Assembly (NCBI GenBank): GCA_017461345.1
Contig: JAFTYP010000021.1
Span: forward strand, 106,155-170,154
DNA from: Bacteroidaceae bacterium
Lineage (GTDB): Bacteria; Bacteroidota; Bacteroidia; Bacteroidales; Bacteroidaceae
DNA length: 64,000 nt
Reading direction: 5' to 3'
Program-made: the position numbers and the translations under genes
Shown here: piece after piece, positions 6,761 through 58,442 of the stretch
How positions within the stretch are numbered: position 1 is the stretch's first letter
Layout: each line of letters opens with the position of its first letter
Notes under the pieces: generated by a model
Databases searched by the model: none
What the model was told of the DNA's origin: nothing
The model's input: only the letters and a program-made list of their open reading frames with translations

Positions 6761-6850
6761 CCTATTTGCCCGAAAAGGTTAACCTAATTGGGCAAATAGG
6801 TTAACCCTTATAGCAAGAATGGTTAACCTAATTCAACAGAAAGGTTAACC
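6761..6850. repeat. 22-bp periodic array A (four GGTTAACC units)
   Basis: The 8-bp palindrome GGTTAACC occurs at 6777, 6799, 6821 and 6843, exactly 22 bp apart each time, with 14-bp linkers that are only loosely alike. The first two copies are also bracketed by a perfect 11-bp inverted repeat (6761-6771 and 6790-6800, cctatttgccc/gggcaaatagg). The array fills the gap between the GH43 stop and the nth start. It is not a terminator (no T-run) and not a CRISPR array (8-bp repeats only). Confidence 0.9.
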
Positions 6851-6884
6851 ATTTTTTGAAGCAACACACTCCCCTCCCAAAACA

Positions 6885-7568
6885 ATGACTCGCAAACAGT
6901 TATATCGCGAAGTAGCAACATACTTCCGCCAGGCAATGCCGGATGCAAAAACAGAACTGCACTACGGCAATCCATTCCAACTGCTCGTAGCCGTCATCCT
7001 CAGCGCACAATGCACCGACAAGCGCATCAACCTCGTCACCCCAAAACTCTTCGAAGACTATCCCAATGCCGAAGCAATGGCTTTGGCCACACCGGAAGTC
7101 ATCTACGAATACATCCGTACCGTCTCCTACCCCAACAACAAAGCCAAACACCTCGTCGAAATGGCACGAATGCTGTGGGAGAAACACGGCGGAGAAGTAC
7201 CGCAAGACCCGAAGCAACTGACCGCACTGCCCGGCGTCGGACGCAAAACAGCCAACGTTATACTGAGCGTCGTCTGGGGCGAAGCAAGGATGGCAGTCGA
7301 CACCCACGTCTTTCGCGTAAGCCACAGACTGGGACTCGTACCAAAAACCTGCACCACACCATACTCCGTAGAACAAACACTCACCAAACATTTCAGCAAA
7401 GAAGAAATCCCCGACGCACACCACTGGCTCATCCTCCACGGCCGATACACCTGCACCGCCCTTCGGCCCAAGTGCGACAAATGCGGACTCCGCCACCTCT
7501 GCAAAGCCCATAAAACACCACTGCACAAACAAACTGCCATACCACACACAAGCGAAGCAAAAAAGTAA
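6885..7568 (+). CDS. nth: Endonuclease III (DNA glycosylase/AP lyase)
   Basis: Base-excision-repair enzyme that removes oxidised pyrimidines and nicks the abasic site. The 227-residue product carries the helix-hairpin-helix LPGVGRKTAN (about 115-124) with the catalytic lysine K121, the catalytic aspartate D139 in AVDTHVFR, and four cysteines for a [4Fe-4S] cluster in the classical C-x6-C-x2-C-x5-C spacing (C190, C197, C200, C206). Full length with a short basic tail. It stands alone between repeat array A and the pgk promoter; no obvious own -7 box is seen in the short gap upstream. Confidence 0.97.
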   Translation: MTRKQLYREVATYFRQAMPDAKTELHYGNPFQLLVAVILSAQCTDKRINLVTPKLFEDYPNAEAMALATPEVIYEYIRTVSYPNNKAKHLVEMARMLWEKHGGEVPQDPKQLTALPGVGRKTANVILSVVWGEARMAVDTHVFRVSHRLGLVPKTCTTPYSVEQTLTKHFSKEEIPDAHHWLILHGRYTCTALRPKCDKCGLRHLCKAHKTPLHKQTAIPHTSEAKK

Positions 7569-7579
7569 ACCAATAAAAC

Positions 7580-7610
7580 TTGCACATTTCATAGAAATGT
7601 CGTACCTTTG
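7580..7610 (+). promoter_or_regulatory. Bacteroidetes-type promoter of pgk
   Basis: A -7 box TACCTTTG (7603-7610) and a -33 TTG (7580-7582) separated by 20 bp match the Bacteroidetes consensus. They lie about 60 bp before the pgk start, beyond the nth stop. Confidence 0.7.
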
Positions 7611-7669
7611 TGGCGGAATAACATTAAGAAGATTACAAAACAATAAACAACAATATAACACATTACATT

Positions 7670-8938
7670 ATGACTTTCAATGAGTATAACTTTGCCGGCA
7701 AAAAGGCAATCGTGCGCGTTGACTTCAACGTACCCCTGAACGAGAATGGTGAAATTACCGACGACACACGCATCCGTGGCGCACTTCCCACACTGAAGAA
7801 GATTATCGCCGACGGTGGCGCAGCAATCATCATGAGCCACATGGGCAAACCCAAAGGCAAGGTAAACCCCAAATTCTCACTCGGCCAAATTCGCGCTGCC
7901 GTAGAAGAAGCACTCGGCTGCCCCGTAGCCTTTGCCCCCGACTGCGCTAAAGCACAAGACGCAGCCAAAGCCCTGAAGATGGGCGAAGCACTCCTGCTCG
8001 AGAACCTCCGCTACTATCCCGAAGAGGAAGGCAAACCCGTAGGCATCGACAAAGAAGATCCCGCCTACGATGAAGCCAAGAAGGCAATGAAGGAAAGTCA
8101 AAAAGAATTCGCAAAAACACTGGCAGCCTATGCCGACTGCTACGTAATGGATGCCTTCGGCACAGCACACCGCAAGCACGCCTCCACAGCAGTCATCGCA
8201 GACTACTTCGACGCCGACAACAAGATGCTCGGCCTGCTCATGGAAAAAGAAGTAACTGCTGTCGACAACGTACTCTCTAACATCAAACGCCCCTTCGTAG
8301 CAATCATGGGCGGCTCCAAAGTGAGCACCAAGATAGGCATCATCGAAAACCTGCTGAGCAAGGTAGACAAACTCATCCTTTGCGGTGGCATGACATACAC
8401 ATTCTCCAAGGCTCACGGTGGCGAAATCGGTGCCTCAATCGTTGAACTCGACAAACTCGACGTCGCTCTCGAAGTAGAAAAGAAGGCAAAAGAAAACGGC
8501 GTAGAACTCGTTTTGGGCGTAGACAGCGTTTGCTGCACCGGCTACGATTTCGGCAACTTCTGCGTAAAACCCGGCGCACAAGTGAAGGTGTTCCCCTCAA
8601 ATGCCATCGAAGAAGGCTGGGACGGATTGGATGCCGGTCCAGAAAGCCGTGTGAAGTTTGCCAACGCCATCAAGGGCGCAAAGACAATCCTCTGGAATGG
8701 TCCTGCCGGATGCTTCGAGTGTGACGAATTCACAGCAGGCAGCAAAGCCGTAGGCGAAGCCATTGCAGAAGCAACAGCAGAAGGCGCATTCTCCCTCATC
8801 GGCGGTGGCGACAGCGTAGCATGCTGCACCAAATTCGGTTTGACCGACAAGGTTAGTTACATCAGCACAGGCGGTGGTGCACTGCTTGAGGCTATCGAAG
8901 GCAAAGTACTTCCCGGTGTTGCAGCCATTAAAGGTTAA
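7670..8938 (+). CDS. pgk: Phosphoglycerate kinase
   Basis: Glycolytic enzyme transferring phosphate from 1,3-bisphosphoglycerate to ADP, cytoplasmic. The 422-residue chain shows the N-terminal VDFNVPLN substrate loop, SHMGKPKG, the [12 protein letters not shown] segment, the ADP site around GGSKVSTK, the NGPAGCFE motif and the C-terminal GGGDSVACC phosphate loop with the terminal STGGGALLE. Full length. It has its own promoter (7603) and is preceded by nth. The genome copy looks intact and highly conserved. Confidence 0.98.
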
Positions 8939-8962
8939 ACCATCGGCCACTTTCTTTGAACA

Positions 8963-9862
8963 TTGAAACAAACACTACTGGCAATTATAGCCACCATCAT
9001 GCTGGCCTCCTGCTCCGAGCGACAGGAGGCCATGCAATTTAAGGCTGACAGTTTAAGCATTGATACTACTGCATTGCGCATCGCTGTCATGCCCACCATG
9101 AGTTGCTTGCCTGTATATTATGCCGAACAAAGCGGGCTTGCAAACAAACTTGGCATGAAGATACAGTTGCTTCGCTATCAGGCCCAAATGGATATTGATA
9201 CAGCCATCCAACGCGGACACACAGACATTGCTTTCACCGACCTTATCCGCTGTACCAGATTAGCACAAGCAAAAACACCGATTAAACCGATCGTTTCTTG
9301 CGACGAACCTTTATCACTCATCTCACTCAAAACTAAACGCGTAAAGAAAATCAACCAGATGAAGCAACAAATGATTGCTTTAAGTCGCCTTTCAGCAACA
9401 GACTATTGGTGCGACCGCCTGCTTGATATTGCCAAAACGAACCATGATGACATCTATCGTCCACAAATCAACGATGTCCGTCTGCGTGCCGAGATGCTTA
9501 GACAGGGCCTTGTCGATGCAGCAATGATGAGTGAACCCTTTGCAACTTGGATGACGAAATTAGGACACAAACGCCTCTTTCTGTCGGATGGCAAACGGCC
9601 TTGGCTCTATGCATGGGCAAATGTCTCTGCCACACAGGCACAGCAAGAAGCCTTCCTCAATCTGCTGGATTCGGCTTTAATCTACATGGGGCAAGACGGA
9701 CAGGACGTTTTCGTACGCAACATTCTGAAGCAAGATTATCAACTTCCGCCTACATATGCCGATACTCTTGAACTCCTGCCCATCAAAATTCCTTCTTCCA
9801 TTCACCCTGACGACATAACGGAAGCCGAAAATTGGCTTAAGAAAAGGCAGACCAAGAAATAA
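8963..9862 (+). CDS. Orphan solute-binding-like lipoprotein (NMT1/SsuA-like fold)
   Basis: 299-residue predicted lipoprotein, start codon TTG, lipobox LASC with Cys17. After the signal the pattern LRIAVMPTMSCLPVYYAEQSGL followed by GHTDIAFTDL and GLVDAAMMSEPF resembles periplasmic substrate-binding proteins of the ThiY/SsuA/TauA class (type 2 two-lobe fold). No ABC permease or ATPase gene is adjacent: pgk lies 24 bp upstream and a TPR gene 65 bp downstream. It may serve a transporter encoded elsewhere or act as a ligand-binding lipoprotein. Ligand unknown; family assignment is by pattern only. Confidence 0.7.
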   Translation: MKQTLLAIIATIMLASCSERQEAMQFKADSLSIDTTALRIAVMPTMSCLPVYYAEQSGLANKLGMKIQLLRYQAQMDIDTAIQRGHTDIAFTDLIRCTRLAQAKTPIKPIVSCDEPLSLISLKTKRVKKINQMKQQMIALSRLSATDYWCDRLLDIAKTNHDDIYRPQINDVRLRAEMLRQGLVDAAMMSEPFATWMTKLGHKRLFLSDGKRPWLYAWANVSATQAQQEAFLNLLDSALIYMGQDGQDVFVRNILKQDYQLPPTYADTLELLPIKIPSSIHPDDITEAENWLKKRQTKK

Positions 9863-9927
9863 GTCATTTCGGCATAAGGGAATAGTTCCTTCATTCTCTT
9901 GATTCTTCATTCTACTGAAAACTGTAT

Positions 9928-12033
9928 ATGATTGACGCCAAAACTCTTCGTCTTATTATTCAAAACGGATTGCAAGCCTTTTCGCAAGGGCGTATTTTGG
10001 ACGGCATCGCCGCACTGAAATCGCTTCTGCCCTATTGTACTAACGAGACTGTGATCTGTGCTGACGCCGAGAGTTTGGAAAAGAATTATCACTATATGCT
10101 TTCTTTTCTGCGTGGCGGTGGGGATGATGGAAAGCGGAGTGAGGTACAGACAAAAATTCAGCGAAACGGCATTCATCTTATAGAACAAACAGGCAGAAAG
10201 ATTCGTCTGCACCTGAATGACGACCGATATTCCGAAGCCTTCCATCGGTTGCAGAGTGCATACGGCGAGCCTATGTCTGTTCTCTTTGAGAAATGGGACA
10301 GTCTGCTTACGCCAGAAGAGAGAAGCGATATTCAAGACGACCTCTTTGATTTGCTTTGGACATCGGGGTTTTGGACGCCACAGGATTTGGCTTCCTGGTA
10401 TGACTTCATAACGGAACAGCACGACATGGTGCAACAGCATTTGACCGGAGCGCTTTTTCTTTCCTTGTGGGAGCACTATGATGGGGAGAAGATGCAACTT
10501 CTTTACCTTTTGGCAGAAAGTGAATGCCGCCGAACTCACATTACGGCTGTTGCCTATCTGCTATTGCTCCGGTTAAGGCATAAAGAGGTAATATCGCAGA
10601 TGCCGCCACTCCCAGAATGTTGTCTGTCGAGGAAGAAACGGCTTGTTGCTGACACTTGTTACGAGATGCTGCTTATGCTTCTCTCCGAGAAGGACATGAA
10701 ACAGGAGTTGGAAGAAGCAGAGAGGCTCTCACAAGAAATCCTTTCTTCCAAAGACTCGCTCAATGCATCCAACATCAAGGCTATTGTGACGCTGAAGGCA
10801 CGCTACATGCGAAACCGGCTCCAACGAGGGCTCGATCCCAATTTGGCAAAAGCACCTTTGCTACATAGTTGCGAGTATCTGCGCCGTATAGCCCACTGGT
10901 TCTTGCCTTTCGACAAGAATCATCCGCTCTTCCAGTCGGTCATGATTGACGAGAAGGGCAACGAAAAGCAGAAACTTTCCACTCTTGTTGACTTTATTTT
11001 AGATTGCGATGTCGACAAGTTGGCCATGCTCTACCTCGTTTCAAACGACAAAGATTTCTCGAAAGCGGCTTTGCAATTAGACAACCAGGAGTTTCCCGAT
11101 TTGGAGAATGCCACTATTCCGGAGTATTCTCTGCGTTTTGTCATGCAAGACCTCTTCCGCTTTTTTGTACACTCGCCCTTGAGTTCACAACTCATCAATC
11201 CTTTCCGAGAGAAACTGACGCTGTTCGATTTCCCCGACCTTGCCAATCTTATTTCTGCCAACGAAAGCGTTGCATGCTGCGAACTGCTGATAGAATTAGG
11301 GCATCCCAGACAAGCCATTGCAGCACTAAACGGTGTCATCGAACGCGAAGGAGCCTCTGCTTCCATTCTACTCATGAAGGGCCAGGCGTTGAGTAATACA
11401 AAGCAATTAGCAGATGCCATCAGTTGTGCACGCAGTGCCGAACTTCTTGAGCCGGAAAACACCGACATTCTTGGGTTCCTCGCCCAATGCTACGGATTGC
11501 AGGGCCGCCACGAAGAAGTGCTCGAATACCTGCAGAAACTTGCCGAACTCATGCCCGAAGACAAGAGAGTACGTAAACTCATCCCGCTGACGATGAACAA
11601 GGTGGGCAGGAAAGAAGAAGCCCTGAAACTCCTCTTCAAACTGGACTACGAATCCACGGAAAACGACGAGGACTACGACGAGATACTTTCTCACATAGCA
11701 GACATTGCACTTTCTCTCGGCAAACTGGACATCGCAGAGCGATATACAGAGAAGGTATTGGAAAGGCTCGACGGCAAAGATGCCGATGCACTGCTCCGCA
11801 CTGGGCACATCAAACTCCTACAAGGAGACTGGAAAGGCTGTCTGGACAACTACGAACAGTTTGTGAACCTCTATTGCAAGCAGCACAACGGAGACATCAG
11901 TTCCGCTCTTTCACAGTGGAACAAAGACCGCGACATGCTCATAGGGAAAGGCATAAAAGAGTCGGACCTCCTGCTCATTCGCGACATCATAATAGCCGAT
12001 TCCGACAACTCAACACAGCAAGCACAATCATAG
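9928..12033 (+). CDS. Tetratricopeptide-repeat protein
   Basis: 701-residue cytoplasmic-looking protein without a signal peptide. The N-terminal 430 residues are helical with no family I recognise. The C-terminal part (about 440-670) has repeated helix pairs with TPR-like spacing, for example RQAIAALNGVIEREGASASI, ADAISCARSAELLEPENTDI and LGKLDIAERYTEKVLE. Such proteins are protein-protein scaffolds. It follows the solute-binding lipoprotein by 65 bp and is followed by repeat array B. No catalytic motif seen. Confidence 0.75.
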   Translation: MIDAKTLRLIIQNGLQAFSQGRILDGIAALKSLLPYCTNETVICADAESLEKNYHYMLSFLRGGGDDGKRSEVQTKIQRNGIHLIEQTGRKIRLHLNDDRYSEAFHRLQSAYGEPMSVLFEKWDSLLTPEERSDIQDDLFDLLWTSGFWTPQDLASWYDFITEQHDMVQQHLTGALFLSLWEHYDGEKMQLLYLLAESECRRTHITAVAYLLLLRLRHKEVISQMPPLPECCLSRKKRLVADTCYEMLLMLLSEKDMKQELEEAERLSQEILSSKDSLNASNIKAIVTLKARYMRNRLQRGLDPNLAKAPLLHSCEYLRRIAHWFLPFDKNHPLFQSVMIDEKGNEKQKLSTLVDFILDCDVDKLAMLYLVSNDKDFSKAALQLDNQEFPDLENATIPEYSLRFVMQDLFRFFVHSPLSSQLINPFREKLTLFDFPDLANLISANESVACCELLIELGHPRQAIAALNGVIEREGASASILLMKGQALSNTKQLADAISCARSAELLEPENTDILGFLAQCYGLQGRHEEVLEYLQKLAELMPEDKRVRKLIPLTMNKVGRKEEALKLLFKLDYESTENDEDYDEILSHIADIALSLGKLDIAERYTEKVLERLDGKDADALLRTGHIKLLQGDWKGCLDNYEQFVNLYCKQHNGDISSALSQWNKDRDMLIGKGIKESDLLLIRDIIIADSDNSTQQAQS

Positions 12034-12055
12034 CCAATAGACAGTCCGAAAAATA

Positions 12056-12129
12056 GGTTAACCATTTCAGTAATAATGGTTAACCTTTCCAATCATAATG
12101 CTTAACCATTCCGGCAATAAAGGTTAACC
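12056..12129. repeat. 22-bp periodic array B (four GGTTAACC-type units)
   Basis: Units at 12056, 12078, 12100 and 12122, exactly 22 bp apart. Three are GGTTAACC; the third is GCTTAACC. The linkers are more alike here (attTC..taataat, tttCCaatcataat, attCCggcaataaa), so the fuller unit is GGTTAACC + attycnnnaataat. Lies directly after the TPR gene stop. Confidence 0.9.
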
Positions 12130-12296
12130 ATTTTCCACGACCTCACCACAAGAATTGCCCGACAGCCTCTGCATACGAAACACATTTGCACAATCGCGCA
12201 CTTAAAAATTCTTAAAAACGGAACCCAAAAGGAAAAATGAACAAATCAAAATGCCTTTTTGACTATGGGGGCTCTCGTCGTTTCGATATTTTTTCG

Positions 12297-12304
12297 TACC
12301 TTTG
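12297..12304 (+). promoter_or_regulatory. -7 box of the RND efflux operon
   Basis: TACCTTTG, the most frequent -7 form in this window, about 104 bp before the adaptor ATG. No good -33 TTG is seen at the usual distance, so the promoter may need an activator or use a weak -33. Confidence 0.5.
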
Positions 12305-12407
12305 CAGCCGATTTTCAAGCAAAAAGGAAAACAATATCCCCACCCGACAGTTTCCCAAATTTCTGACAACAACAAAAAGCAAATAACCAAACAATTTATA
12401 TAACTGT

Positions 12408-13535: not shown

Positions 13536-13554
13536 AAACACAAGAAGCGAAAGA

Positions 13555-13588
13555 AATTTTGAATTTTGAATTTCTAAATTTTGAATTC
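13555..13588 (+). repeat. AT-rich heptamer repeat before the RND pump gene
   Basis: Four imperfect copies of an aattttg / aatttct heptamer end 2 bp before the pump ATG. It resembles the runs before the GH43 and lptD genes. It may keep the start codon accessible; no protein site is recognised. Confidence 0.4.
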
Positions 13589-16915: not shown

Positions 16916-18292
16916 ATGAAAAAGATATTTTCCATCGTCATTGCAGGTATGCTTCTTGGCTCCTGTGGACTATACAAAAACTATGAGCGTCCGTCCGACA
17001 TCATTACAGATGGCATATACGGCGAAATGCAGACCGCCGGCGACAACAGTCTTGGCGACCTTGGATGGCGCGACATCTTCACAGATGCCAATCTGCAGGC
17101 ACTTATTGAACGAGGTTTGAAGCAAAACTCCGACATGAAGAATGCCGAACTTCGCATCAAGGAGGCTGACTATGCACTGCAATGTGCCAAGCTTGCCTAC
17201 ATTCCCAGCTTCTACTTCAATCCCAGCGGTTCTATTAGCCGTCCTTGGGATCCATACGACAGATCCAGTTTCACGGCAAGCAAGTCCTACGCTTTGCCTG
17301 TTACCATGAGTTGGCAGATAGGCAGCATCGGCTCGTTGCGCAACACGAAGAAGAAGGCCGAAGTGTCTCGCGAACAACTTCGTAATGCAAAGCAGGCCAT
17401 CCAGGCACAACTCGTTGCCAACATTGCTGCCATATATTACAACCTCTGCATGTTCGACGAACAACTGGCTCTGACTCGCCAGACAGAACAGAACTGGGGC
17501 AAATACTTGCAGATGCAAAAGCAACTCATGGATGCCGGTCAGTCCAACACCGCTGCCGTTGCAAGCATTGAGGCAACATATTACAGCATCTCAACCTCTA
17601 TCGTATCACTTGAAGACAACATCCACAGTCTTGAAATTGCGCTTAGCACACTCATCGGCGAGACATTCAGTCACGTACAACGCAGTTCGCTGGCATCGTT
17701 CAAGACACCGGGTGTTATCGGAACAGGCTTGCCCATCAGCATTCTGGACAGACGCCCCGACGTGCGCAATGCCGAACTCATACTGGCTTCTGCATTCTAC
17801 GACAAGAACATCGCCCGCAGCAATTTCTTTCCACAGATTAGCATTTCTGCTACCGGACAGTACACAAATTCTGCAGGTTCGGTCATCAACCCCGGTGTTA
17901 TGATAGGGAATGCCCTTGCCAACCTGGCACAGCCTCTTTTCCAGAATGGCCAAATCCGTGCGCAGTACAAGATTTCGAAAGCCGAATTGGAGATTGCCAC
18001 CAACGACTTCAAGCAAGCAATTCTTGCTGCAGGCAACGAAGTACAGAAAGCCATGGACGACATCCACGTGGCAAACGACATGCAGGTTTTGATTGACAAA
18101 CAGGTAGAAGCACTGAATCGTGCACTCGATGCCACACAACAACTCTACCAGAACACCGGTACAAACTACCTGAATGTCATCACTGCCCAGAACTCGTTGC
18201 TCAGTGCCCAGATGAGCCAGATCGGCAATCGCATGGACGCTATCAATGCAACAATCAACCTCTATCAGGCTCTTGGCGGCGGTGCAGAATAA
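16916..18292 (+). CDS. RND efflux outer-membrane lipoprotein (OprM/NodT family)
   Basis: Outer-membrane factor of the RND pump, 458 residues from ATG 16916. An in-frame extension back to 16829 would overlap the pump gene and lacks a signal peptide, so I reject it. The lipobox LGSC gives Cys17. NodT-type features are the tandem TolC repeats: FTDANLQALIERGLKQNSD, then YIPSFYFNPSG, and in the second half LPISILDRRPDVRNAELILA and YLNVITAQNSLLSAQ. Together with the two genes upstream it forms a full tripartite pump. A strong terminator follows. Confidence 0.95.
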   Translation: MKKIFSIVIAGMLLGSCGLYKNYERPSDIITDGIYGEMQTAGDNSLGDLGWRDIFTDANLQALIERGLKQNSDMKNAELRIKEADYALQCAKLAYIPSFYFNPSGSISRPWDPYDRSSFTASKSYALPVTMSWQIGSIGSLRNTKKKAEVSREQLRNAKQAIQAQLVANIAAIYYNLCMFDEQLALTRQTEQNWGKYLQMQKQLMDAGQSNTAAVASIEATYYSISTSIVSLEDNIHSLEIALSTLIGETFSHVQRSSLASFKTPGVIGTGLPISILDRRPDVRNAELILASAFYDKNIARSNFFPQISISATGQYTNSAGSVINPGVMIGNALANLAQPLFQNGQIRAQYKISKAELEIATNDFKQAILAAGNEVQKAMDDIHVANDMQVLIDKQVEALNRALDATQQLYQNTGTNYLNVITAQNSLLSAQMSQIGNRMDAINATINLYQALGGGAE

Positions 18293-18340
18293 TAGCATGC
18301 AACACACCAACTACTGAAAAGCAAACACACACCCAATAGA

Positions 18341-18390
18341 AAGAAACCCTTCCCCGTATGCTCCGGCATTGGGAAGGGTTTCTTGTTTTT
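18341..18390 (+). terminator. Intrinsic terminator of the RND operon
   Basis: Perfect 14-bp stem (18341-18354 with 18371-18384, aagaaacccttccc), 16-base loop, then gttttt. It follows the operon stop by 48 bp. Confidence 0.92.
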
Positions 18391-18501
18391 GTACGTCAAC
18401 AATCTGCGCCAGTACCTTAAAATCTCACAAGGGCCATCCATCTGCCCGAAACGAATCGGAAAAAACCTTACAACTTGCCGACGGTAAAAGTTTTCTCTCA
18501 A

Positions 18502-18602
18502 AACTATACACGTTAAATCGCCAAACCATACACGTTAAGTCAGCCAACTTAACACGTTAAAACGACCAACTAAACACGTTTACTTTGCCGACTTCACGTG
18601 AG
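18502..18602. repeat. 22-bp periodic array D (CACGTTAA units)
   Basis: ACGT centres at 18510, 18532, 18554 and 18576 are exactly 22 bp apart; a fifth, in CACGTG, follows after 20 bp at 18596. The core is CACGTTAA in the first three units, CACGTTTA in the fourth and CACGTGAG in the last. Linkers carry the shared phrase gCCAAaC/gCCAAcT. On the opposite strand the unit reads AACGTGTATAGTT, the same as units in arrays E and H. Confidence 0.88.
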
Positions 18603-18850
18603 TATTTTGAACGCAAATCAGGCACAAAACACAAACCACTGATTACCATTGCGTTGCTCCCTCCTTTCAAGATTACTCAATCCTCGCAGATGAAGGCCTG
18701 CCGTAAAACATTCATTGTCTGGAAATAGAGAAGGACATCCCCGAGGTACTCGGAAAGATGTTGACAAATACACACCATCCAACAACGCGGACATCTCTGA
18801 AAAGGAACTATTGTCGGCAGAAACGAGCATCTCCAAAATGCGGTTGAAAC

Positions 18851-18893
18851 AAAAAAGCGAGGCTGCTTGTATCGTTCAACTACAGGCAGCCTC
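18851..18893 (-). terminator. Intrinsic terminator of the GH92 gene
   Basis: On the minus strand an 8-bp GC-rich stem (gaggctgc/gcagcctc, 18886-18893 with 18859-18866), extended inside by tacag/ttgta, is followed by gcTTTTTT (18851-18856). It is 39 bp past the GH92 stop. Confidence 0.85.
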
Positions 18894-18931
18894 TACTATA
18901 TGGACTATTTTTGTTCTGTCCGACGAAACGG

Positions 18932-21389: not shown

Positions 21390-21463
21390 GGTTAACCTAT
21401 CTACAGATAATGGTTAAGGATTCTGCCGATAATGGTTAACCTTTTCGGAAATAATGGTTAACC
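21390..21463. repeat. 22-bp periodic array C (four GGTTAACC-type units)
   Basis: Units at 21390, 21412, 21434 and 21456, exactly 22 bp apart. Three are GGTTAACC; the second is GGTTAAGG. Each unit is preceded by ataat, as in array B. The array starts 9 bp beyond the flippase stop codon and lies upstream of the GH92 promoter. Confidence 0.9.
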
Positions 21464-24171: not shown

Positions 24172-24311
24172 GATTATTATCAAGGGGTTTCCTAAAACCC
24201 TTATGGAGCGTGTGAATAGTTCGTCTCTTTGGCCTGAACGAACGGTTCGTGAATCGCCCATAAAAAAGAGAAATAAACTAGGTAGAAACAAAAACAAAAG
24301 TAAAACAAAGA
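24172..24311 (+). promoter_or_regulatory. Candidate structured 5' leader of rplM-rpsI
   Basis: The leader holds a hairpin AAGGG..CCCTT (24182-24186 with 24198-24202, extended by TTT/AAA) and a set of competing pairings. ACGAAC at 24238-24243 can pair with GTTCGT at 24219-24224, or part of it with TTCGT at 24246-24250, but not both. Such alternatives are typical of autoregulated ribosomal-protein leaders. I cannot match it to a named family. Confidence 0.4.
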
Positions 24312-27243: not shown

Positions 27244-27343
27244 ATTTCTCCAACTATATATAAGACTATTTTAGTCCACAGAAAAGACCGCCGACAAGGC
27301 GTATTACTTAAGATTACTGTCATTCTTGAAAAATGCGGTATAA

Positions 27344-27449
27344 AACTTCTGCAGAGAACTTTGCAATTTACTCCAGAGAAGTTAGCAATTTACTCCAGAG
27401 AAGTTGGCGAACTTAACGTGTATAGTTGGGCAAACGAACACGTCCTGTA
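27344..27449. repeat. 22-bp periodic array E (mixed CTGCAG and AACGTG units)
   Basis: Cores begin at 27349 (CTGCAGAG), 27371 (CTCCAGAG), 27393 (CTCCAGAG), 27415 (AACGTGTA) and, degenerate, 27437 (AACACGTC), each exactly 22 bp apart. Flanking arms are AACTT or ATTTA on the left and AAGTT or TAGTT on the right. The 9-bp joins carry agcaa, tGGCg or gGGCAaac. Two different core types alternate within one register. Confidence 0.88.
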
Positions 27450-33807: not shown

Positions 33808-34833
33808 ATGAAGGAACGCATCGGGTATATTGACCTTGCTAAGGGTTTCTGCATCCTACTTGTTGTCTTGGACCATGTTGCCAACGAAGGTTACTTCTGG
33901 AGTGGCAACTATCCGCTGAATGAAGTCTTCGACCAGATGCGCATGCCGCTCTACTTCATCCTTTCCGGACTTTTCTTCAAAGAGTATAGCGGTGGCCTCC
34001 GGGAGTTTATCACTCGAAAGACAAACAAGATTCTCGTTCCCTATCTTTTCTTTATCCTCTTATACCGAGCGATAACCTGGTTGGTTCAGAACTATACCGA
34101 CTTTGCATCGACGGGGACAAACATCGCCGGAATATGGGGACCTTTGTGGTTCCTGCGCTGCCTTTTCTTTATGAATGTCATCTTTGCCTTGGCACACTAT
34201 GCAATCCACCGACTTGCAGGCACGCCTATCGTCGGGGAAATTCTTATGGCTATCTGCATGTTCGGCGTTGGTGTTGCCGGCTATCATGTGGGGAACTGGC
34301 ATTTGAACTTCGGGACGGCATTGACTTGTATGCCACTCTTTTGGTCGGGTTATTTCCTGAACAAAAAGTTGCATCTGCTGGAAATGAACATCAAGCGGGG
34401 CTGGGCTCTGAGTATATCTGTGCTTCTGTTTGTAACGATACATTTCCTATACATGGGCGACAATTACTTTTACAGCAACACCTACAGCAGTCCTCTGCCG
34501 CTTCTCTACGTCTCCGGCTTGGCAGGTTCAATCGCCATCCTGCTCATAAGCAGCGTTATCCGCCGGTTGCCCATTGTCTCGTATGTGGGTCGCTACTCGA
34601 TTATCATACTTTGCACGCATCAGGTCATCATAACCCTCCTCGTTGCGGCAAAGCATTTCCTGCCGGAGATGTACCGGCAAACCGGCTTGACAGAAAGCCT
34701 CATCTTCTTTGCTATCACCGTCGGCATTTCTATTCTCTGCTGCCGTCCGCTGAAGAAATACTTGCCTTGGTTTACGGCTCAAAAAGATTTGATTAAAATA
34801 CCCTGCAGTGATGTTGACGAATTTCTGCAGTGA
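33808..34833 (+). CDS. Acyltransferase family 3 membrane protein
   Basis: Integral inner-membrane acyltransferase (OafA/NodX-like fold), 341 residues and about ten membrane segments. The family opening YIDLAKGFCILLVVLDHVAN contains the histidine thought to be catalytic, and RMPLYFILSGLFF follows. Such proteins O-acetylate or otherwise acylate surface sugars. Repeat array F begins inside the reading frame at 34803: the last ten codons and the TGA stop are made of repeat units. The C-terminal tail after IKIPC is therefore probably not native to the fold. Confidence 0.88.
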   Translation: MKERIGYIDLAKGFCILLVVLDHVANEGYFWSGNYPLNEVFDQMRMPLYFILSGLFFKEYSGGLREFITRKTNKILVPYLFFILLYRAITWLVQNYTDFASTGTNIAGIWGPLWFLRCLFFMNVIFALAHYAIHRLAGTPIVGEILMAICMFGVGVAGYHVGNWHLNFGTALTCMPLFWSGYFLNKKLHLLEMNIKRGWALSISVLLFVTIHFLYMGDNYFYSNTYSSPLPLLYVSGLAGSIAILLISSVIRRLPIVSYVGRYSIIILCTHQVIITLLVAAKHFLPEMYRQTGLTESLIFFAITVGISILCCRPLKKYLPWFTAQKDLIKIPCSDVDEFLQ

Positions 34834-34886
34834 TGTTGGCAAACTTCACTGCAGAAGTTGACGAACTTCACAGGAGAAGTTTGCAG
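34803..34886. repeat. 22-bp periodic array F (CTGCAGTG units)
   Basis: Cores at 34803 (CTGCAGTG), 34825 (CTGCAGTG), 34847 (CACTGCAG, the reverse complement of the first two) and 34869 (CACAGGAG), each exactly 22 bp apart; right arms ATGTT or AAGTT. The first one and a half units are inside the acyltransferase reading frame, and the array ends just before the converging GH92 stop. Confidence 0.9.
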
Positions 34887-34892
34887 ACTACT

Positions 34893-37184
34893 TTAGTAAC
34901 CATCGGAAGTCAAACTGTACGGAGCATCCTTCTTGGCTATTCCCAATTGCTTGTTCGGCTTGTCAGACATCTGTAAAGAGAGTGTTCCACCAGAAACCAG
35001 TTCCTTGTAGGTGATATAGTTGCGTGTAATAGACTGACCGTTCAGGCTGCGTTCGGCGACATAGACATTCTGTTTCGAATTGTCCTTTGCCTCAATAACG
35101 AACTGCTTTCCGTCTTCCATTGTGATGGTTGCCTTACGGAAGATGGGACTTCCGAGCACATATTGGTCTGTTCCAGGCGTAACTGCATAAAGGCCTAACG
35201 CAGAGAGAACATACCACGACGACATGCCACCTTGGTCCTCATCACCAGGGAAACCATCGGGCGTACTGTTATAGAGCCGCTCCATTATCTGGCGAACCCA
35301 GTACTGCGTCTTCCATGGCTGACCCGCATAACTGTAGAGATATGGCATATGTTGAATGGGTTGATTGCCGTGAGCATACTGTCCCATACCCGCGATCTCC
35401 ATCTCCGTCATCTCGTGAATCTTGCCGCCATACCATCCGGGCTTAATTGTGCTGGGTTGCGAAAAGACGCTGTCCATCTTCTCCACAAAGGCTTCGTCAC
35501 TGCCAAAGAGGTCGATAAGACCCTGAACATCGTGGAAAACGCTCCATATATAATGCCATGCATTGCCTTCGGTGTACGGTCCGCCCCACACAAGAGGGTC
35601 GAAAGGCTCCATGCTCCACCTGCCGTCCTTACCTCTTCCTCTGAAGAATTTCGTCTCAGGGTCCCAAAGGTTCAGGTAGTTGCGAAGCACTCTTTCGAAT
35701 ATCTTCTCGTAAAATGTATTGCCACACGAGCGGGCAAGTTTCCAAGCGCACCAGTCGTCGTAGGCATATTCGAGTGTTTGAGTAACACTTCCATGCGACT
35801 CAGGGAAGGTGACATAACCCAGTTGCCAGTACTCTTTCCAACCTGCTCTTCCGTTCGCACCACCTAATGGGCCTTTGTTCATAGCCTCGTGAGCATATGC
35901 AGCCAATGCAGAATCTGGGTCGAAAGAATGTATGCCTTTTGCCCAAGCATCAGCTAAAAGCGAGATACTATGGTTGCCACACATGCCTCCGGTCTCGCCT
36001 GGGCAAGACCATGCAGGCAACCATCCGAACTGCTTTTGCGCATCGAGAAGGGCTTGCATGTAATGACCTTGCTGCGTAGGGTGCAGAATGTTGGTCAAAG
36101 GGAACTGACTTCGGAAGGTATCCCAAAAGCCGTTGTCAGTCAGCATATAGCCGTCGTAAATCTTTCCGTCGTAAGGACTATAGTAATAAGGCGTGCCGTC
36201 CGACCTGATTTCATAGAACTTGCGGGAGAAAAGGTTCGCGCGAAAGAGGCAACTGTAAAAGGTTCGCATCTGTTCTTCAGTGCCCCCTTCGACCTTTATA
36301 CGGTTGAGCAGAGCATTCCACGTCTTGAAGCCACGTGCCTTTGTCTGTTCCAACTTTCGGTCCGCGCCAAGTTCCGATTGCCAGTTCTGCCAGGCCTGTT
36401 CTTCGGAAATATAGCTACTTGCAGCTCTCGCCTGCACCTTACTGCCCGGACGGAACTTGAGGTAACAGCCATAACGCTTGCCCTTGCCGTCCTTCTCTTG
36501 CGGAAACGTTTGCTTCTGCTCCCCTTCCCAAATGCCATAATCGAGTATTGGCTGGTCGAACTGAACGACGAAATAGCAGCGGAAGTTCTCGCTGTGATTG
36601 ACGAAACGATGATTGTTAACCCATCCCGTAACCTGCCTCTTCTCAGGATTTACATGGATTTCTGACTGATCTGTATAGCCGTCAATAACCAAATAGGCAT
36701 CGTCCTTCTTGGGATAAGAGAAACGCAAGTGAACACCTCTCTCTGTAGGCGCCATCTCTGTCTGAATGCCGTTATCGAAGGTTACACTATAGTAATGGGG
36801 CTGCCCGACTTCGTTACAATGGCAGAAGCTTGCGCCTCGCTTATCGGGATCAACTTCCAGCGTGCCCGTTTCTGGAAAGAAAGTATAGACAGCATAGTCG
36901 CTAACCCAGGGCGAAGGCTGGTGGCTCTGACCGAATCCTCTGATTTTGTCGGACTCATAAAGATACTTAAATCCCTCGCCGTTGGGTCCCGTCTGAGGCG
37001 TCCACATGTGCTGACCATACGGCATAGCCGTTGCAGGGAAGGTGTTGCCGTGTGAAAGACCGAAGTTCGAATGAGTGCCTTGCAGAGTATTTACATACTG
37101 AACTAAATCCGATTGGCTGGCTGCCTCAACGAACAATAAACTCGACAAGAGAACAAAGAAAAAAGAAAAATATCGGCTGCCCAT
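34893..37184 (-). CDS. GH92 family glycosidase, second copy
   Basis: Predicted exported mannosidase-family enzyme, 763 residues, signal peptide 1-23 (ends EAAS). GH92 features are DLVQYVNTLQGTHSNFGLSHGN, the domain-linking MRTFYSCLFRANLF, MLTDNGFWDTFRSQFP, EYAYDDWCAWKLARSCG, and the late GDEDQGGMSSWYVLSALGLY and FVIEAKDNSKQNVYV motifs. It is clearly not a recent duplicate of the GH92 at 18932: the N-terminal halves differ strongly. An MFS transporter gene lies upstream on the same strand, so uptake of released sugar is possible (inference). Confidence 0.92.
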   Translation of the reverse strand: MGSRYFSFFFVLLSSLLFVEAASQSDLVQYVNTLQGTHSNFGLSHGNTFPATAMPYGQHMWTPQTGPNGEGFKYLYESDKIRGFGQSHQPSPWVSDYAVYTFFPETGTLEVDPDKRGASFCHCNEVGQPHYYSVTFDNGIQTEMAPTERGVHLRFSYPKKDDAYLVIDGYTDQSEIHVNPEKRQVTGWVNNHRFVNHSENFRCYFVVQFDQPILDYGIWEGEQKQTFPQEKDGKGKRYGCYLKFRPGSKVQARAASSYISEEQAWQNWQSELGADRKLEQTKARGFKTWNALLNRIKVEGGTEEQMRTFYSCLFRANLFSRKFYEIRSDGTPYYYSPYDGKIYDGYMLTDNGFWDTFRSQFPLTNILHPTQQGHYMQALLDAQKQFGWLPAWSCPGETGGMCGNHSISLLADAWAKGIHSFDPDSALAAYAHEAMNKGPLGGANGRAGWKEYWQLGYVTFPESHGSVTQTLEYAYDDWCAWKLARSCGNTFYEKIFERVLRNYLNLWDPETKFFRGRGKDGRWSMEPFDPLVWGGPYTEGNAWHYIWSVFHDVQGLIDLFGSDEAFVEKMDSVFSQPSTIKPGWYGGKIHEMTEMEIAGMGQYAHGNQPIQHMPYLYSYAGQPWKTQYWVRQIMERLYNSTPDGFPGDEDQGGMSSWYVLSALGLYAVTPGTDQYVLGSPIFRKATITMEDGKQFVIEAKDNSKQNVYVAERSLNGQSITRNYITYKELVSGGTLSLQMSDKPNKQLGIAKKDAPYSLTSDGY

Positions 37185-37211: not shown

Positions 37212-37282
37212 AGTTGCCAAACTATACACGTTAAAATGGCAAAGTTCACACGTTAAGTTTGGCATTTTAACGTGTGAACTTT
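37212..37282. repeat. 22-bp periodic array G with an inverted last unit
   Basis: Units AACTATACACGTT (37220-37232) and AAGTTCACACGTT (37242-37254) are 22 bp apart. A third unit, AACGTGTGAACTT (37269-37281), is inverted relative to the second. The second and third form a perfect 15-bp stem (37242-37256 with 37267-37281) with a 10-base loop, followed on the plus strand by T residues. Lies between the MFS and GH92 genes, both on the minus strand. Confidence 0.85.
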
Positions 37283-37332
37283 TTATGCATAATACGTCGC
37301 CTGATTATCAGCGACATATAGTATGGAGTATT

Positions 37333-45208: not shown

Positions 45209-45302
45209 CATTGTCACGAAAAACACCCTTTTACTTTCTTTTTGTCACTTCGATTCCCGACGCCATACGGCACAAAATAGAACGGAAAACAGGAAAGAAA
45301 CA

Positions 45303-45391
45303 GGCTTCACAAGAGAAGTCTGCCGACTTAACGTGTATAGTTTGACAACTTCACGTGTGTAATTTGACAACTTCACGTGTGTAGTTTGGCA
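45303..45391. repeat. 22-bp periodic array H (CACAAGAG, AACGTG and CACGTG units)
   Basis: Cores at 45308 (CACAAGAG), 45330 (AACGTGTA), 45352 (CACGTGTG) and 45374 (CACGTGTG), all exactly 22 bp apart. Right arms are AAGTC, TAGTT, TAATT and TAGTT. The joins carry TGACAACTT or TGCCGACTT. Shares the AACGTGTATAGTT unit with array E. Confidence 0.9.
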
Positions 45392-45430
45392 AAATTCCTC
45401 AACTGATTACCCCACAAAAAGCGCAAAATA

Positions 45431-52476: not shown

Positions 52477-52478
52477 GT

Positions 52479-53057: not shown

Positions 53058-53061
53058 CTTA

Positions 53062-54636: not shown

Positions 54637-54668
54637 TGATTATTATTCAAAATATATAAATTCAAATA

Positions 54669-55190: not shown

Positions 55191-55196
55191 ATTTCT

Positions 55197-55844
55197 CTAT
55201 CTGAATAGCGTATAAATCAATCCCACCGATGACGCCACCATTACCAAAAGGCCAAGCAGGCGGTTGAGCAGACTGATGGTGTTCATGTCGAATCGGGAAC
55301 CAAGTTTATTGAGGGCGGTTGTCAAGCAGAGCCACCAAACTATTGCACCCACGAAGACTCCTGCATAGCCTATTGTCTGTTCTGCCGGATGGTCGGGCAC
55401 GACGAAACCGCAACGGGCAAAGAGAGCAAGAAAGAGGAAGACGATGAGCGGATTGCTTGCCGTTATGGCCAAACCTGTGAACATATTGTGCCAGAAACTG
55501 CCCACCTTCCCGCTCGACTTGTGGGGTTTTGTAGGTTTCACGAAATAGGTGTATGCGCCAAAGAAGAAGAGCATGATGCTGCCCAGTATCTTAAGGCACA
55601 GAACAGTTGTGGGACGTTCTATGAAGTCCATCACGAAACTCATGCCCAAGCCCGTCAGCATGGCATAGATAAGGTCGCTCAGTGCAGCGCCCAATCCTGT
55701 AGCAAAGCCATACCAACGCCCTTTGTTGAAGGTTCGTTGAACAGTCAGCACCCCTACAGGTCCCATAGGTGCGCTTGCCACTATTCCCACCACCATACCT
55801 CGCACCGCAAGGTCTATGGCGTTGACAGATTCAATCCACATCAT
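55197..55844 (-). CDS. LysE/RhtB family exporter
   Basis: Inner-membrane amino-acid exporter of the LysE family, 215 residues and six expected membrane segments. The family motif near the start GIVASAPMGPVGVLTVQRTFNKG is the LysE pattern (G-P-G..), with WYGFATGLGAALSDLIYA following and NPLIVFLFLALFARCGF later. Substrate cannot be chosen. First gene of the minus-strand operon; a -7 box lies only 8 bp from its ATG, so its transcript may be nearly leaderless. Confidence 0.88.
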   Translation of the reverse strand: MMWIESVNAIDLAVRGMVVGIVASAPMGPVGVLTVQRTFNKGRWYGFATGLGAALSDLIYAMLTGLGMSFVMDFIERPTTVLCLKILGSIMLFFFGAYTYFVKPTKPHKSSGKVGSFWHNMFTGLAITASNPLIVFLFLALFARCGFVVPDHPAEQTIGYAGVFVGAIVWWLCLTTALNKLGSRFDMNTISLLNRLLGLLVMVASSVGLIYTLFR

Positions 55845-55852
55845 TTCGGGCG

Positions 55853-55860
55853 CAAAAGTA
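55853..55860 (-). promoter_or_regulatory. -7 box of the LysE-prfC-ClC operon
   Basis: TACTTTTG on the minus strand ending 8 bp before the ATG, so the leader would be a few bases long. Confidence 0.5.
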
Positions 55861-55897
55861 CGAAAAAAAGTTCATAAGTCATAATAATTCCCTCTGC

Positions 55898-55931
55898 TTG
55901 ATACTTTACTCTTCATTTTTTTATATATTTG
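55898..55931 (+). promoter_or_regulatory. Promoter of the ROK kinase gene
   Basis: -33 TTG (55898-55900), 23-bp spacer, -7 TATATTTG (55924-55931). About 73 bp before the ATG. Confidence 0.6.
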
Positions 55932-56004
55932 TGCAGAAAAACGTCAGACAACGACGTTAACAAATTACGCTAACCATTAACTCATAAATTCATAAACTAA
56001 AACA

Positions 56005-56988
56005 ATGGACAAATTGAAACCCTATGTAATTGGTGTGGACCTTGGTGGTACCAACACCGTGTTCGGAGTAGTAAACGCTCGTGGCGAAGTTGTAGCAGAG
56101 AACAGCATCAAGACGCAGCAGTACAAGACGGCTGAAGAGTTCGTCGAGGCAGGCGTGGCTTGCATGAGGCCTCTGTTGGAGCAGATTGGCGGTGCCGACC
56201 AGGTTCAGGGCATGGGCATCGGTGCTCCTAACGGCAACTACTACAATGGCACCATCGAGTTCGCTCCCAACCTTCCCTGGGCACACGACGGCATCATTCC
56301 TTTGGCTAAGATGTTCAACGAAGCCACAGGCATTCCCGTTAAACTCACCAACGACGCCAATGCTGCCGCAATGGGCGAAATGGCATACGGTGCTGCACGT
56401 GGCATGAAGAACTTCATCGTCATCACTCTCGGCACAGGCGTTGGCAGTGGTATCGTCATCAACGGCCAGTTGGTATATGGCAGCGACGGCTTTGCCGGCG
56501 AACTCGGTCACGTTGTAATGGACCGCACAGAGAAGGGTCGCAGTTGCGGTTGCGGCCGCACAGGTTGCCTCGAGGCATACTGCTCTGCCACTGGTGTAGC
56601 GCGTACTGCTCGCGAGATACTTGCCACCACCGACCGTCCTTCTTTGCTTCGCGACAAGCCTGCCGAAGAAATCGAGTCGCTCGACGTAAGCATTGCAGCA
56701 AGCAAGGGTGACGAAGTGGCTAACGAAATCTTCCAGTTCACAGGCAAGATGCTGGGTGAGGCTTGTGCCGACTTCGCAGCCTTCAGCAGCCCCGAAGCCT
56801 TCATCTTCTTCGGTGGTCTTTGCAAGGCAGGCGACCTCATCATGAACCCCATCAAGGAAGCCTACGACAATGCCGTTCTGAAAATCTTCAAGGGCAAAGC
56901 CAAGTTCCTTGTTTCCGGCTTGATGAATGCCAACGCAGCCGTTCTGGGTGCAAGTGCATTGGGCTGGGAAGCAGCAAACGAGAACTAA
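56005..56988 (+). CDS. ROK-family sugar kinase (glucokinase type)
   Basis: Cytoplasmic ATP-dependent sugar kinase, 327 residues. It has the ATP phosphate loop GVDLGGTNTVFGVV, the second glycine loop GTGVGSGIVING, the substrate motif NDANAAAMGEMAYGA with the catalytic Asp, the EXGH motif GELGHVVM and the zinc-binding CGCGRTGCLEAYCS. The pattern fits bacterial glucokinases more than transcriptional ROK repressors (no helix-turn-helix). Own promoter and terminator, so a single-gene unit. Confidence 0.94.
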   Translation: MDKLKPYVIGVDLGGTNTVFGVVNARGEVVAENSIKTQQYKTAEEFVEAGVACMRPLLEQIGGADQVQGMGIGAPNGNYYNGTIEFAPNLPWAHDGIIPLAKMFNEATGIPVKLTNDANAAAMGEMAYGAARGMKNFIVITLGTGVGSGIVINGQLVYGSDGFAGELGHVVMDRTEKGRSCGCGRTGCLEAYCSATGVARTAREILATTDRPSLLRDKPAEEIESLDVSIAASKGDEVANEIFQFTGKMLGEACADFAAFSSPEAFIFFGGLCKAGDLIMNPIKEAYDNAVLKIFKGKAKFLVSGLMNANAAVLGASALGWEAANEN

Positions 56989-57013
56989 ACGAAGAACATC
57001 CCATTCCATACAA

Positions 57014-57050
57014 AAGCCTCTCCCTTTCTGCTTGGGGAGAGGCTTCTTTG
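57014..57050. terminator. Bidirectional terminator between the ROK kinase and a minus-strand gene
   Basis: 11-bp stem AAGCCTCTCCC/GGGAGAGGCTT (57014-57024 with 57035-57045), followed by ctttgt on the plus strand and ttttg on the minus strand. The T-runs are short. Confidence 0.7.
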
Positions 57051-57072
57051 TATGTATATTAACAGGTTTGTT

Positions 57073-58167
57073 TTATCGTCTTTCTACGAGTTTCTTTTCC
57101 CCACCCTCGATATAGATGCCTCGCGCTGGTTTATCGAAGAGTTGTCTGCCTTGCAAGTCGTAGAGTCCCGCTGGCGAAGAAAGAATTTGTTGGTTACGTA
57201 AAGACGTCGGATTACCAGCCATACATTCCAGTTCCACCGTCTTATTGTAAAGTTGAACCTGATACGTTCCTTTCTTGAAATTTGATATGCGCGCTTCTAT
57301 GTTGTAGTTGCTGAAGCAATCCACATCAGCTAAAGAGTAGGTCTTGAAAGAAATATTGTCTCCCTCCAGCACACAAGCAGCATAGGGCTGCAATGCGCAG
57401 GACGTGCGAAGCCAACCCCACACTCGAAGCGTATCGCCCAAAAACTCTGCGTTCAAGTTGGTTGGGGCGGTACTCCACGCTTGATATGCCTCCCACTCCT
57501 CGTCTGTCTCAATTTCACCGCCTTCCCATTTTGCTTCCGAAAAGTCCATGTCTGCAGTCTTGACATACTGATTGTTGGGATAGAAACAATAGCAGAAGAA
57601 GTCCGAACCATCTGTGTCTTCATCTGTATCGTATCGAGGACTCGTCAACAGATATATTTGTTTGTAACAATCGTTTGCACGCATAATGCCTGTATAGACA
57701 GAGCCAACCCCCTCCATCCAAACATCGCGTTTCCCCTCCTCGTTCCGGAGTTCTATCAGGCGCAGAATTCTGTTGTTCGCCAAAGTGTCGCGTACATCGG
57801 TCACTCGGTATTCCTCTCCATTGTAGGTGTCGGCAAAGGTGTCACCCTGTTCCAAACCAAAATCGAATAACAGATGTTCCGAATTGGTCCTGGTGTCATA
57901 ACAAAAGAATTTTGTTCCGTCTTGTCGGAGCAGGAGAAAGGACTCCTCATATTTGTTTCCTTCGAAATAAGCCGAATACCGCCAATACCTTTGTTCGCCC
58001 AACATAACATCCTGATGCGGTTCAATGTATAGTGTCTCATATAGCCCTTCTGGTGTAACCACGAAATAGGTTCCCTGAAAGTTTGCAGCAACGTTCGAGT
58101 CCTCTTTTGCAATGCCAATAGCGTTACATAAGAAAAGCAGTAGGAATATCAGCAAAGTTGATTTCAT
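57073..58167 (-). CDS. Secreted protein with a possible C-terminal sorting-type tail
   Basis: Unrecognised 364-residue exported protein; signal peptide ends AIGIA. The body is beta-rich with paired phrases such as YEESFLLLRQDGTKFFCYD. The last 35 residues (GLYDLQGRQLFDKPARGIYI then GGEKKLVER) resemble the C-terminal domains of Bacteroidetes surface or type IX-secreted proteins; PorU and PorV in this window would be the machinery for such cargo. No enzymatic motif. Its promoter spacer carries a 13-T homopolymer. Confidence 0.72.
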   Translation of the reverse strand: MKSTLLIFLLLFLCNAIGIAKEDSNVAANFQGTYFVVTPEGLYETLYIEPHQDVMLGEQRYWRYSAYFEGNKYEESFLLLRQDGTKFFCYDTRTNSEHLLFDFGLEQGDTFADTYNGEEYRVTDVRDTLANNRILRLIELRNEEGKRDVWMEGVGSVYTGIMRANDCYKQIYLLTSPRYDTDEDTDGSDFFCYCFYPNNQYVKTADMDFSEAKWEGGEIETDEEWEAYQAWSTAPTNLNAEFLGDTLRVWGWLRTSCALQPYAACVLEGDNISFKTYSLADVDCFSNYNIEARISNFKKGTYQVQLYNKTVELECMAGNPTSLRNQQILSSPAGLYDLQGRQLFDKPARGIYIEGGEKKLVERR

Positions 58168-58217
58168 ACAATAAGTTTTTAATGGTTATATATTTTTAGG
58201 TTATACAAAAGTCCGCC

Positions 58218-58242
58218 CAAATGTAATGCTTTTTTTTTTTTT
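58218..58242 (-). promoter_or_regulatory. -7 box with an adjacent homopolymer spacer
   Basis: On the minus strand the -7 TACATTTG (58218-58225) of the secreted-protein gene is preceded, 4 bp away, by a run of 13 A (58230-58242 as T on the plus strand). The tract lies where the -33/-7 spacer should be. No convincing -33 is visible. Confidence 0.5.
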
Positions 58243-58331
58243 ACACACCAGACTTCAAAGAATTATTTTTTAATCCATTGAAAAAGAAATCATTCTTTTC
58301 ATCCTCAGGGATAAGACACAAGGCAAAAAAT

Positions 58332-58442
58332 AACCTCTCAAAAGAAGTTTTGAAAACTCTCTAGAGAACTTCGCCAACTTCTGCAGAGAAGTTGCCCGAC
58401 TTCTCTGCAGAAGTTGGGCAATTACACACGTGAACTTTGCCG
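58332..58442. repeat. 22-bp periodic array I (five units, CTGCAG and CACGTG types)
   Basis: Cores at 58337 (CTCAAAAG), 58359 (CTCTAGAG), 58381 (CTGCAGAG), 58403 (CTCTGCAG, the reverse complement of the previous) and 58425 (CACACGTG), each 22 bp apart; right arms AAGTT or AACTT. The clearest case of units in both orientations. Confidence 0.9.

Follow-up and report, generated by a model that had tools for sequence, protein, structure and literature searches.

Dispersed palindromic sites that serve a dedicated protein, such as parS for ParB, NBS for Noc and matS for MatP, are mostly single sites. By contrast, the intergenic arrays described here hold about four sites each at 22-bp intervals, with an array every few kilobases. 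They were found in a 64,000-nucleotide stretch (hereafter the window) of contig JAFTYP010000021.1, assembly GCA_017461345.1, from an uncultured gut bacterium of the Bacteroidaceae.

Several other described systems resemble these arrays. Repetitive extragenic palindromes (REPs) and the bacterial interspersed mosaic elements (BIMEs) are clustered, high-copy extragenic imperfect palindromes of species-specific sequence that favour unidirectional and convergent gaps, and gyrase and IHF bind to BIMEs (PMC2817692, PMC3733652). The arrays share with them the clustering of extragenic imperfect palindromes, the high copy number, the species-specific sequence and the preference for unidirectional and convergent gaps, and they likewise prefer gene 3' ends; they differ in their fixed 22-bp register, their roughly four units and their even spacing. 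The BrickBuilt element of Porphyromonas gingivalis has a 23-nt unit with the consensus AGAYCATARTATCCTCTCRTRTG, and a leader and a tail that carry inverted ends; it is present 19 times in one strain, and its repeat number varies among strains (PMC4596501). Both are intergenic tandem repeats of about two helical turns in Bacteroidales, but the arrays have a period of 22 and another consensus. A preliminary description of the window had mentioned a Porphyromonas transposable element with tandem repeats of similar length; this element is BrickBuilt.

The stoperators of cluster A mycobacteriophages are many dispersed sites for one DNA-binding protein, with a consensus that varies among relatives together with the repressor; they are asymmetric, predominantly oriented with transcription, and located in phage genomes (PMC6550527). 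The arrays, by comparison, are dyad-symmetric, are built at 22 bp and have no consistent orientation bias. We rejected viral spread, as viral contigs contained no exact match to GGTTAACCWTTN8AAWGGTTAACC, a pattern stricter than GGTTAACC-N13-15-GGTTAACC. Filing the arrays as REP/BIME or BrickBuilt elements is not supported, and no description of them was found in the literature searched, the coverage of which excludes subscription papers and preprints.

Register and anatomy of the arrays

The preliminary description listed nine arrays in a 22-bp register, and a reading of the window letters confirmed all nine (A to I, Table 1). Lag autocorrelation of the window recovered each of them at lag 22, whereas other lags from 5 to 79 gave 0-3 clusters each, with the exception of the multiple 44 (n = 7). 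In seven arrays (B, C, D, E, F, H and I), Tandem Repeats Finder called 22 bp as the period. Two irregularities that had been described vanished on inspection: array D has no 20-bp step, and the inverted unit of array G keeps the 22-bp register. At least two core classes, which belong to a genome-wide set, occur among the nine arrays. Class I (arrays A, B and D) has four GGTTAACC-like cores in each array. Class II (arrays C and E-I), summarized as AACTT-CACG/CTGC-AAGTT, has units near AACTT-8 bp-AAGTT with a centre of CACG/CGTG or CTGC/GCAG and, once, CTAG.

Enrichment of the register was borne out across the window's own assembly (G000; 2.07 Mb, 72.75% complete), in which GGTTAACC-N13-15-GGTTAACC occurs at 113 places and the reversed control pattern at none. 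A 464-kb sample of G000, consisting of the window and 20 stretches of 20 kb, contained 74 copies of GGTTAACC versus 4.4 expected; the comparison words CCTTAAGG, GGAATTCC and CCAATTGG were present in 7, 8 and 3 copies versus 4.3, 7.2 and 9.8 expected. Exact GGTTAACC pairs within 80 bp of each other were separated by 22 bp in 25 cases, 23 bp in one, 44 bp in 15 and 66 bp in 10. This sample yielded 54 arrays at lag 22, and any other lag of 15-40 yielded at most 5. When a dyad-symmetry filter was applied to periods of 15-40, period 22 accounted for 34 of 35 arrays in G000 and for all 35 in the sister species (G012); the filter was passed by 34 of the 54 lag-22 arrays in G000 and by 35 of 48 in G012. 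Extrapolation from the 54 arrays gives about 240 per genome, false matches included: some lag-22 matches are no real arrays (for example, the coding-like match C1:110165), and a threshold of 26 brings in chance matches. Of the 28 class I arrays that contain two or more units, 19 have four units, five have three, two have two and two have five. The observed 22-bp pattern is confirmed as real and is larger than the preliminary description stated.

The class I site, as read from 57 linkers, consists of RDAAWGGTTAACCWTTHY and a free stretch of four bases, mostly G or C. The dyads have an 11-bp periodicity: in 32 of 45 G000 arrays, the best and second-best centres of symmetry are 11 bp apart. For comparison with the sister species, 34 of the 54 G000 arrays were mapped to G012, the other 20 being unmapped partly because the matching stretch lay outside the G012 sequence compared. 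Sequence flanking the mapped arrays diverges by an average of 14.6%. Array length was kept without gaps in 29 of the 34 and differed by exactly one 22-bp unit in two; the remaining three have gaps of 1, 2 and 17. In the 17 class I arrays, of the 34 mapped, that were used for the substitution comparison, cores differed at 14 of 512 sites (2.7%, counting units whose core is GGTTAACC-like in one genome or in both), arms at 54 of 470 and the 4-bp joins at 56 of 188 (30%). The join is free to change in sequence and fixed in length. The proposed division into an 8-bp core, 5-bp arms and 4-bp joins is supported for the GGTTAACC class by both the linkers and the substitution rates, and is less clean in class II.

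One five-unit array, in a gap called divergent (G000:C4:18088-18236, in L048), has GCCACGCC-like units, compared with GGCACGTT-like sequences in most sister units, which is a concerted change along the array.

Relatives and spacing along the chromosome

The GGTTAACC pair was found only in G000 and G012 among 61 genomes. Arrays at 22 bp were nevertheless present in all 12 related loci that carry the TPR protein, 31 in total, with other cores in 11 of the 12, including TACATGTA, CCACGG/CCGTGG, GGCACGCC and TCGCGA. In seven of these loci an array lies behind the same TPR gene, at a distance of 0 to about 310 bp, and in six of the seven its cores are different. Against the 31 occurrences of lag 22, lag 8 occurred 10 times, lag 21 eight times, and lags 14 and 16 seven times each. 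The geometry is common to near relatives and the letters are not. The preliminary description was to be refuted by a lack of genome-wide enrichment of the spacing or by absence from related strains; the register proved to be enriched in G000 and present in near relatives. Farther members of the genus have fewer arrays, without a dominant 22-bp period. At a stricter threshold, the rest of the genus yielded 14 lag-22 arrays in 493 kb, located in 11 of 27 stretches, versus 12 at lag 21. In 392 kb from other genera of the family, there were 12 lag-22 and 13 lag-21 arrays, and 512 kb from other families of the order contained three at lag 22. Dyad-symmetric tandem arrays in a 21-bp register were also seen in other genus or family members (L105:9505-9613, L144:16084-16195 and L148:17289-17390).

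To assess the spacing, array-bearing gaps were compared with sets of real gaps drawn at random with weights for context, in 1500 simulations and at a residual-gap minimum of 60 bp; array pairs that share one gap were merged or contributed no more than one count. In G000, 4 neighbour spacings were below 3 kb versus 12.8+-2.4 simulated, and none of the 1500 simulations gave so low a number; in G012 there were 6 versus 13.2+-2.3 (2 of 1500). The weakest result over all cut-offs was 21 of 1500, on the coefficient of variation (CV). In species with other cores, none of 13 spacings fell below 3 kb versus 5.3+-1.6 expected (0 of 2000), a test limited to loci with at least two array-bearing gaps (19 of 53 gaps had an array). 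At a looser threshold, G000 had a median spacing of 5.9 kb, with 2 of 62 spacings below 2 kb, both involving coding-like matches; for G012 the corresponding values were 5.6 kb and 1 of 46.

Neighbours of different classes were closer than 3 kb in 2 of 20 cases in G000 and 1 of 13 in G012, compared with 4 of 28 and 8 of 31 for neighbours of the same class. Because different-class neighbours are not closer, sequence likeness is not what keeps the arrays apart. Avoidance of recombination between like arrays was rejected as the cause of the spacing on these raw counts, in which class II stands for all arrays other than class I.

Proposed docking of proteins and alternative explanations

Across the class I core, symmetry was 73-91% at offsets 1, 2, 4, 6 and 7 and 51-59% at offsets 3 and 9; at offsets 5 and 8, merely 18-32% of units were symmetric. 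Since a hairpin would need pairs at offsets 5 and 8, class I is not kept as a hairpin. In the pairing comparison of G000 with G012 (17 class I and 10 class II arrays), 0 of 10 double changes across class I cores were compensated, and three compensated changes were found across class I joins. Class II had five compensated double changes across cores and one across joins, some of which arose from whole-unit core switches. There was no excess of G-U on the sense strand of tandem arrays (237 G-U versus 239 A-C mismatches). The RNA folds of arrays A to I had z-scores of -8.3, -4.2, -1.4, -1.4, -0.3, -4.2, -3.4, -0.2 and -5.5 relative to shuffled sequences, and four arrays (C, D, E and H) were not clearly more stable than the shuffles. 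In view of the uncompensated class I changes, the equal G-U and A-C counts and the erratic stability as RNA, double-stranded DNA seems to be the target of selection, and this part of our reading is well supported for class I. An RNA-level function was rejected, as folding, the sense-strand mismatches and class I compensation gave it no consistent support. No Rfam family matched any window array at the gathering threshold.

From what was computed, namely the register, the constraint on the core, the free joins, the lack of an RNA-level signal, the even spacing and the array with a changed core behind the same gene, we infer that dimers of sequence-specific proteins dock on these arrays and that the arrays have an architectural role in the chromosome; taken together, the protein, its cooperative binding and this role appear about evenly balanced between being right and wrong. 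Each array would offer about four dyad sites to one or more DNA-binding proteins that bind as dimers, with the class I motif and its 4 bp of free sequence forming one presumptive site, and bound dimers would touch their neighbours at the fixed distance of 22 bp, or about two turns. The arrays occupy non-coding gaps, mostly right behind genes and in convergent gaps. The likeliest role would be the anchoring or insulating of chromosome or supercoil domains, because the arrays are spread evenly along the chromosome (median spacing of about 6 kb). Site sequence turns over between species and geometry and many positions persist, as would be expected if the specificity of the protein drifts and its sites follow.

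The preliminary description had placed bound proteins two turns apart on one face of the DNA, a reading that is partly supported. A protein on DNA in a two-turn register fits the constrained dyad core, the free but length-fixed joins and the lack of a sign of RNA-level selection; however, with 10.5 bp to a turn, a 22-bp step makes 2.1 turns and rotates neighbouring sites by about 34 degrees, and the sites are thus not strictly on one face.

We tentatively raise a wider possibility, which we would not yet expect to hold: that the arrays constitute a chromosome-spacing system, with some 240 arrays in each genome, placed near-regularly a few kilobases apart, and a DNA code that is rewritten between species as the geometry and many positions are kept. 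Such a system would typically provide four dimer sites on an 88-bp two-turn lattice, and a nucleoid protein and all its sites would co-evolve rapidly. If this is true, genome-wide, evenly spaced protein-docking arrays would change their letters between species and retain their geometry and many positions. They would then offer a natural experiment on the co-evolution of a nucleoid protein with hundreds of its sites and a handle on what sets the size of chromosome domains in Bacteroidales, an order in which, to our knowledge, little is known about chromosome organisation.

Several observations count against the docking of proteins in an architectural role. No binding protein was found, the sole candidate tried being the single-copy ParB: class II cores resemble parS, and ParB was rejected as the binder with one ParB_N match in G000. 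Class II, with its five compensated core changes, is more hairpin-like, and arrays A, B, F, G and I are far more stable as RNA than shuffled sequences. The arrays prefer convergent gaps and gene 3' ends, as transcription-linked elements would. Among symmetric arrays, period 22 was found in 8 and period 21 in 7 of 34 in the rest of the genus, and in 3 and 4 of 14, respectively, in other genera of the family. The selection of units for core conservation introduces a mild bias. As for the spacing, G000 and G012 are sisters and not independent, and the replicate from other species comprises merely 13 spacings. In four single stretches, 24% (C1), 12% (C10), 6% (window) and 6% (G012 C19) of simulations were at or below the observed CV, compared with under 0.5% in the other three. 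Close pairs also occur inside one gap (18608 and 18716 in L016; 2848 and 3231 in L024).

Alternatively, the arrays may be operator-like and have a local task, insulating or blocking transcription at gene ends as a roadblock similar to stoperators, with the even spacing as a by-product of operon layout. We consider this rather unlikely. Gene context was assessed with home-made gene calls, which leave gene starts, the placing of three arrays within genes and part of the divergent cases uncertain. Among gaps of at least 100 bp, convergent ones held an array in 11 of 22 cases in G000, 10 of 14 in G012 and 4 of 6 in the loci of other species; the corresponding counts were 30 of 81, 27 of 62 and 18 of 49 for tandem gaps and 6 of 31, 6 of 20 and 2 of 7 for divergent gaps. 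The array in a tandem gap was nearer the upstream stop in 26 of 30 (G000), 23 of 28 (G012) and 16 of 19 cases (other species' loci). These distributions are consistent with local insulation, as is the sequence specificity of the core, and class I sites lean slightly in orientation relative to transcription (20 versus 14 in G000 and 24 versus 16 in G012). However, this lean is weak and class II leans the opposite way (8 versus 11 and 4 versus 10), on the basis of which transcription-oriented sites were rejected. Some divergent-gap matches are no true arrays, but G012 retains at least two of the arrays assigned to divergent gaps. Moreover, hairpin terminators stand between the stop and the array on 17 of 75 gene ends, and the spacing remains even against random choice among real gaps. 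Of 20 scanned window proteins, mostly array neighbours, 19 matched ordinary Pfam families.

It is improbable, in our estimate, that the arrays are mobile palindromic repeats of the REP/BIME kind, which a transposase would spread and which would persist as hairpins of RNA or of single strands. Besides the shared traits listed above, some compensated changes in class II units agree with this origin. The Y1 transposase family PF01797, however, had no match in G000 or G012, both incomplete (72.75% and 86%); in the genus, 22 of 61 genomes had a match at E<=0.001, 17 of them over the cut-off. The lack of pairing at offsets 5 and 8 and of core compensation, both in class I, and of a G-U excess speaks against retention as a hairpin, and neither a fixed register nor even spacing would be expected under random insertion. 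A GTAG or CGTC tag at the palindrome end was absent from the class I consensus, the only class compared (57 linkers).

Bidirectional intrinsic terminators or protectors of mRNA 3' ends would explain the A- and T-runs that flank many arrays of G000 and G012, but we regard this explanation as hard to credit. The runs in tandem gaps are without bias to the sense side (A-left in 14 and T-right in 10 of 30 in G000; 14 and 15 of 28 in G012). On the same 75 gene ends, terminator-like folds overlap the array in 19 cases and follow it in 6, whereas 33 ends have none, and some arrays lie in divergent gaps. Strong terminator-like hairpins are slightly commoner at gene ends with an array than at those without one (0.71 versus 0.60 in convergent and 0.46 versus 0.36 in tandem gaps). 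The five window arrays that fold better than shuffles favour termination, and the other four do not. That the arrays are minisatellites inside a miniature inverted-repeat transposable element, as their BrickBuilt-like tandem unit might suggest, is extremely improbable, since the BrickBuilt repeat number is described as expanding and contracting between strains (PMC4596501), whereas 29 of 34 mapped arrays keep their length and class I peaks at four units.

The nine arrays and other features of the window

The coordinates of the arrays and their neighbouring genes are given in Table 1. Array A is identical in length and cores in G012, and two units of array E have a different core there, which represents a whole-unit core switch. 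Between array E and the stop upstream of it there is a hairpin terminator distinct from the array. Array C could not be mapped to G012, in which the corresponding gap is much longer and contains other arrays. The anchors of this gap (window 18258-18921) are about 4.4 kb apart in G012 versus 0.66 kb here, a difference that is an insertion or replacement, and the L016 copy of the gap has two arrays with other cores.

Table 1. Positions, core features and gene context of the nine 22-bp arrays in the window
Array	Class	Position	Strand	Cores or centres	Context
A	I	6777..6850	.	GGTTAACC cores at 6777, 6799, 6821, 6843; every step 22 bp	3' of GH43-like gene, 5' of endonuclease III-like gene
B	I	12056..12129	.	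Cores at 12056, 12078, 12100 (GCTTAACC), 12122; 22-bp steps	3' of TPR gene 9928-12033
C	II	18475..18610	.	CACG/CGTG centres	Convergent gap
D	I	21390..21463	.	Cores at 21390, 21412 (GGTTAAGG), 21434, 21456; all 22-bp steps	
E	II	27330..27435	.	CTGCAG/CTCCAG and ACGTGT cores	
F	II	34795..34900	.	CTGCAGTG/CACTGCAG	Convergent gap; overlaps 3' end of + strand ORF 33808-34833
G	II	37215..37283	.	Centres CACG 37227, CACG 37249, CGTG 37271	
H	II	45299..45412	.	CGTG centres	Convergent gap; adjoins LptD-like gene
I	II	58331..58445	.	Centres CTAG, GCAG, CTGC, CACG	3' of - strand gene 58555-62445

In class II units, for example those of array H, the inner palindrome (CACGTG or CTGCAG) is one base off the dyad of the AACTT/AAGTT arms. 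This offset goes to either side and so gives each site a polarity. For adjacent sites of both classes in G000, the polarity was the same in 26 pairs and different in 11. The only Rfam match of the window, outside the arrays, was the L13-Bacteroidia ribosomal protein leader (RF03127) at 24185-24255. A tandem repeat of 6-, 24- and 30-bp units (CCAGAA type) was found within a predicted ORF at window positions 62850-62915.

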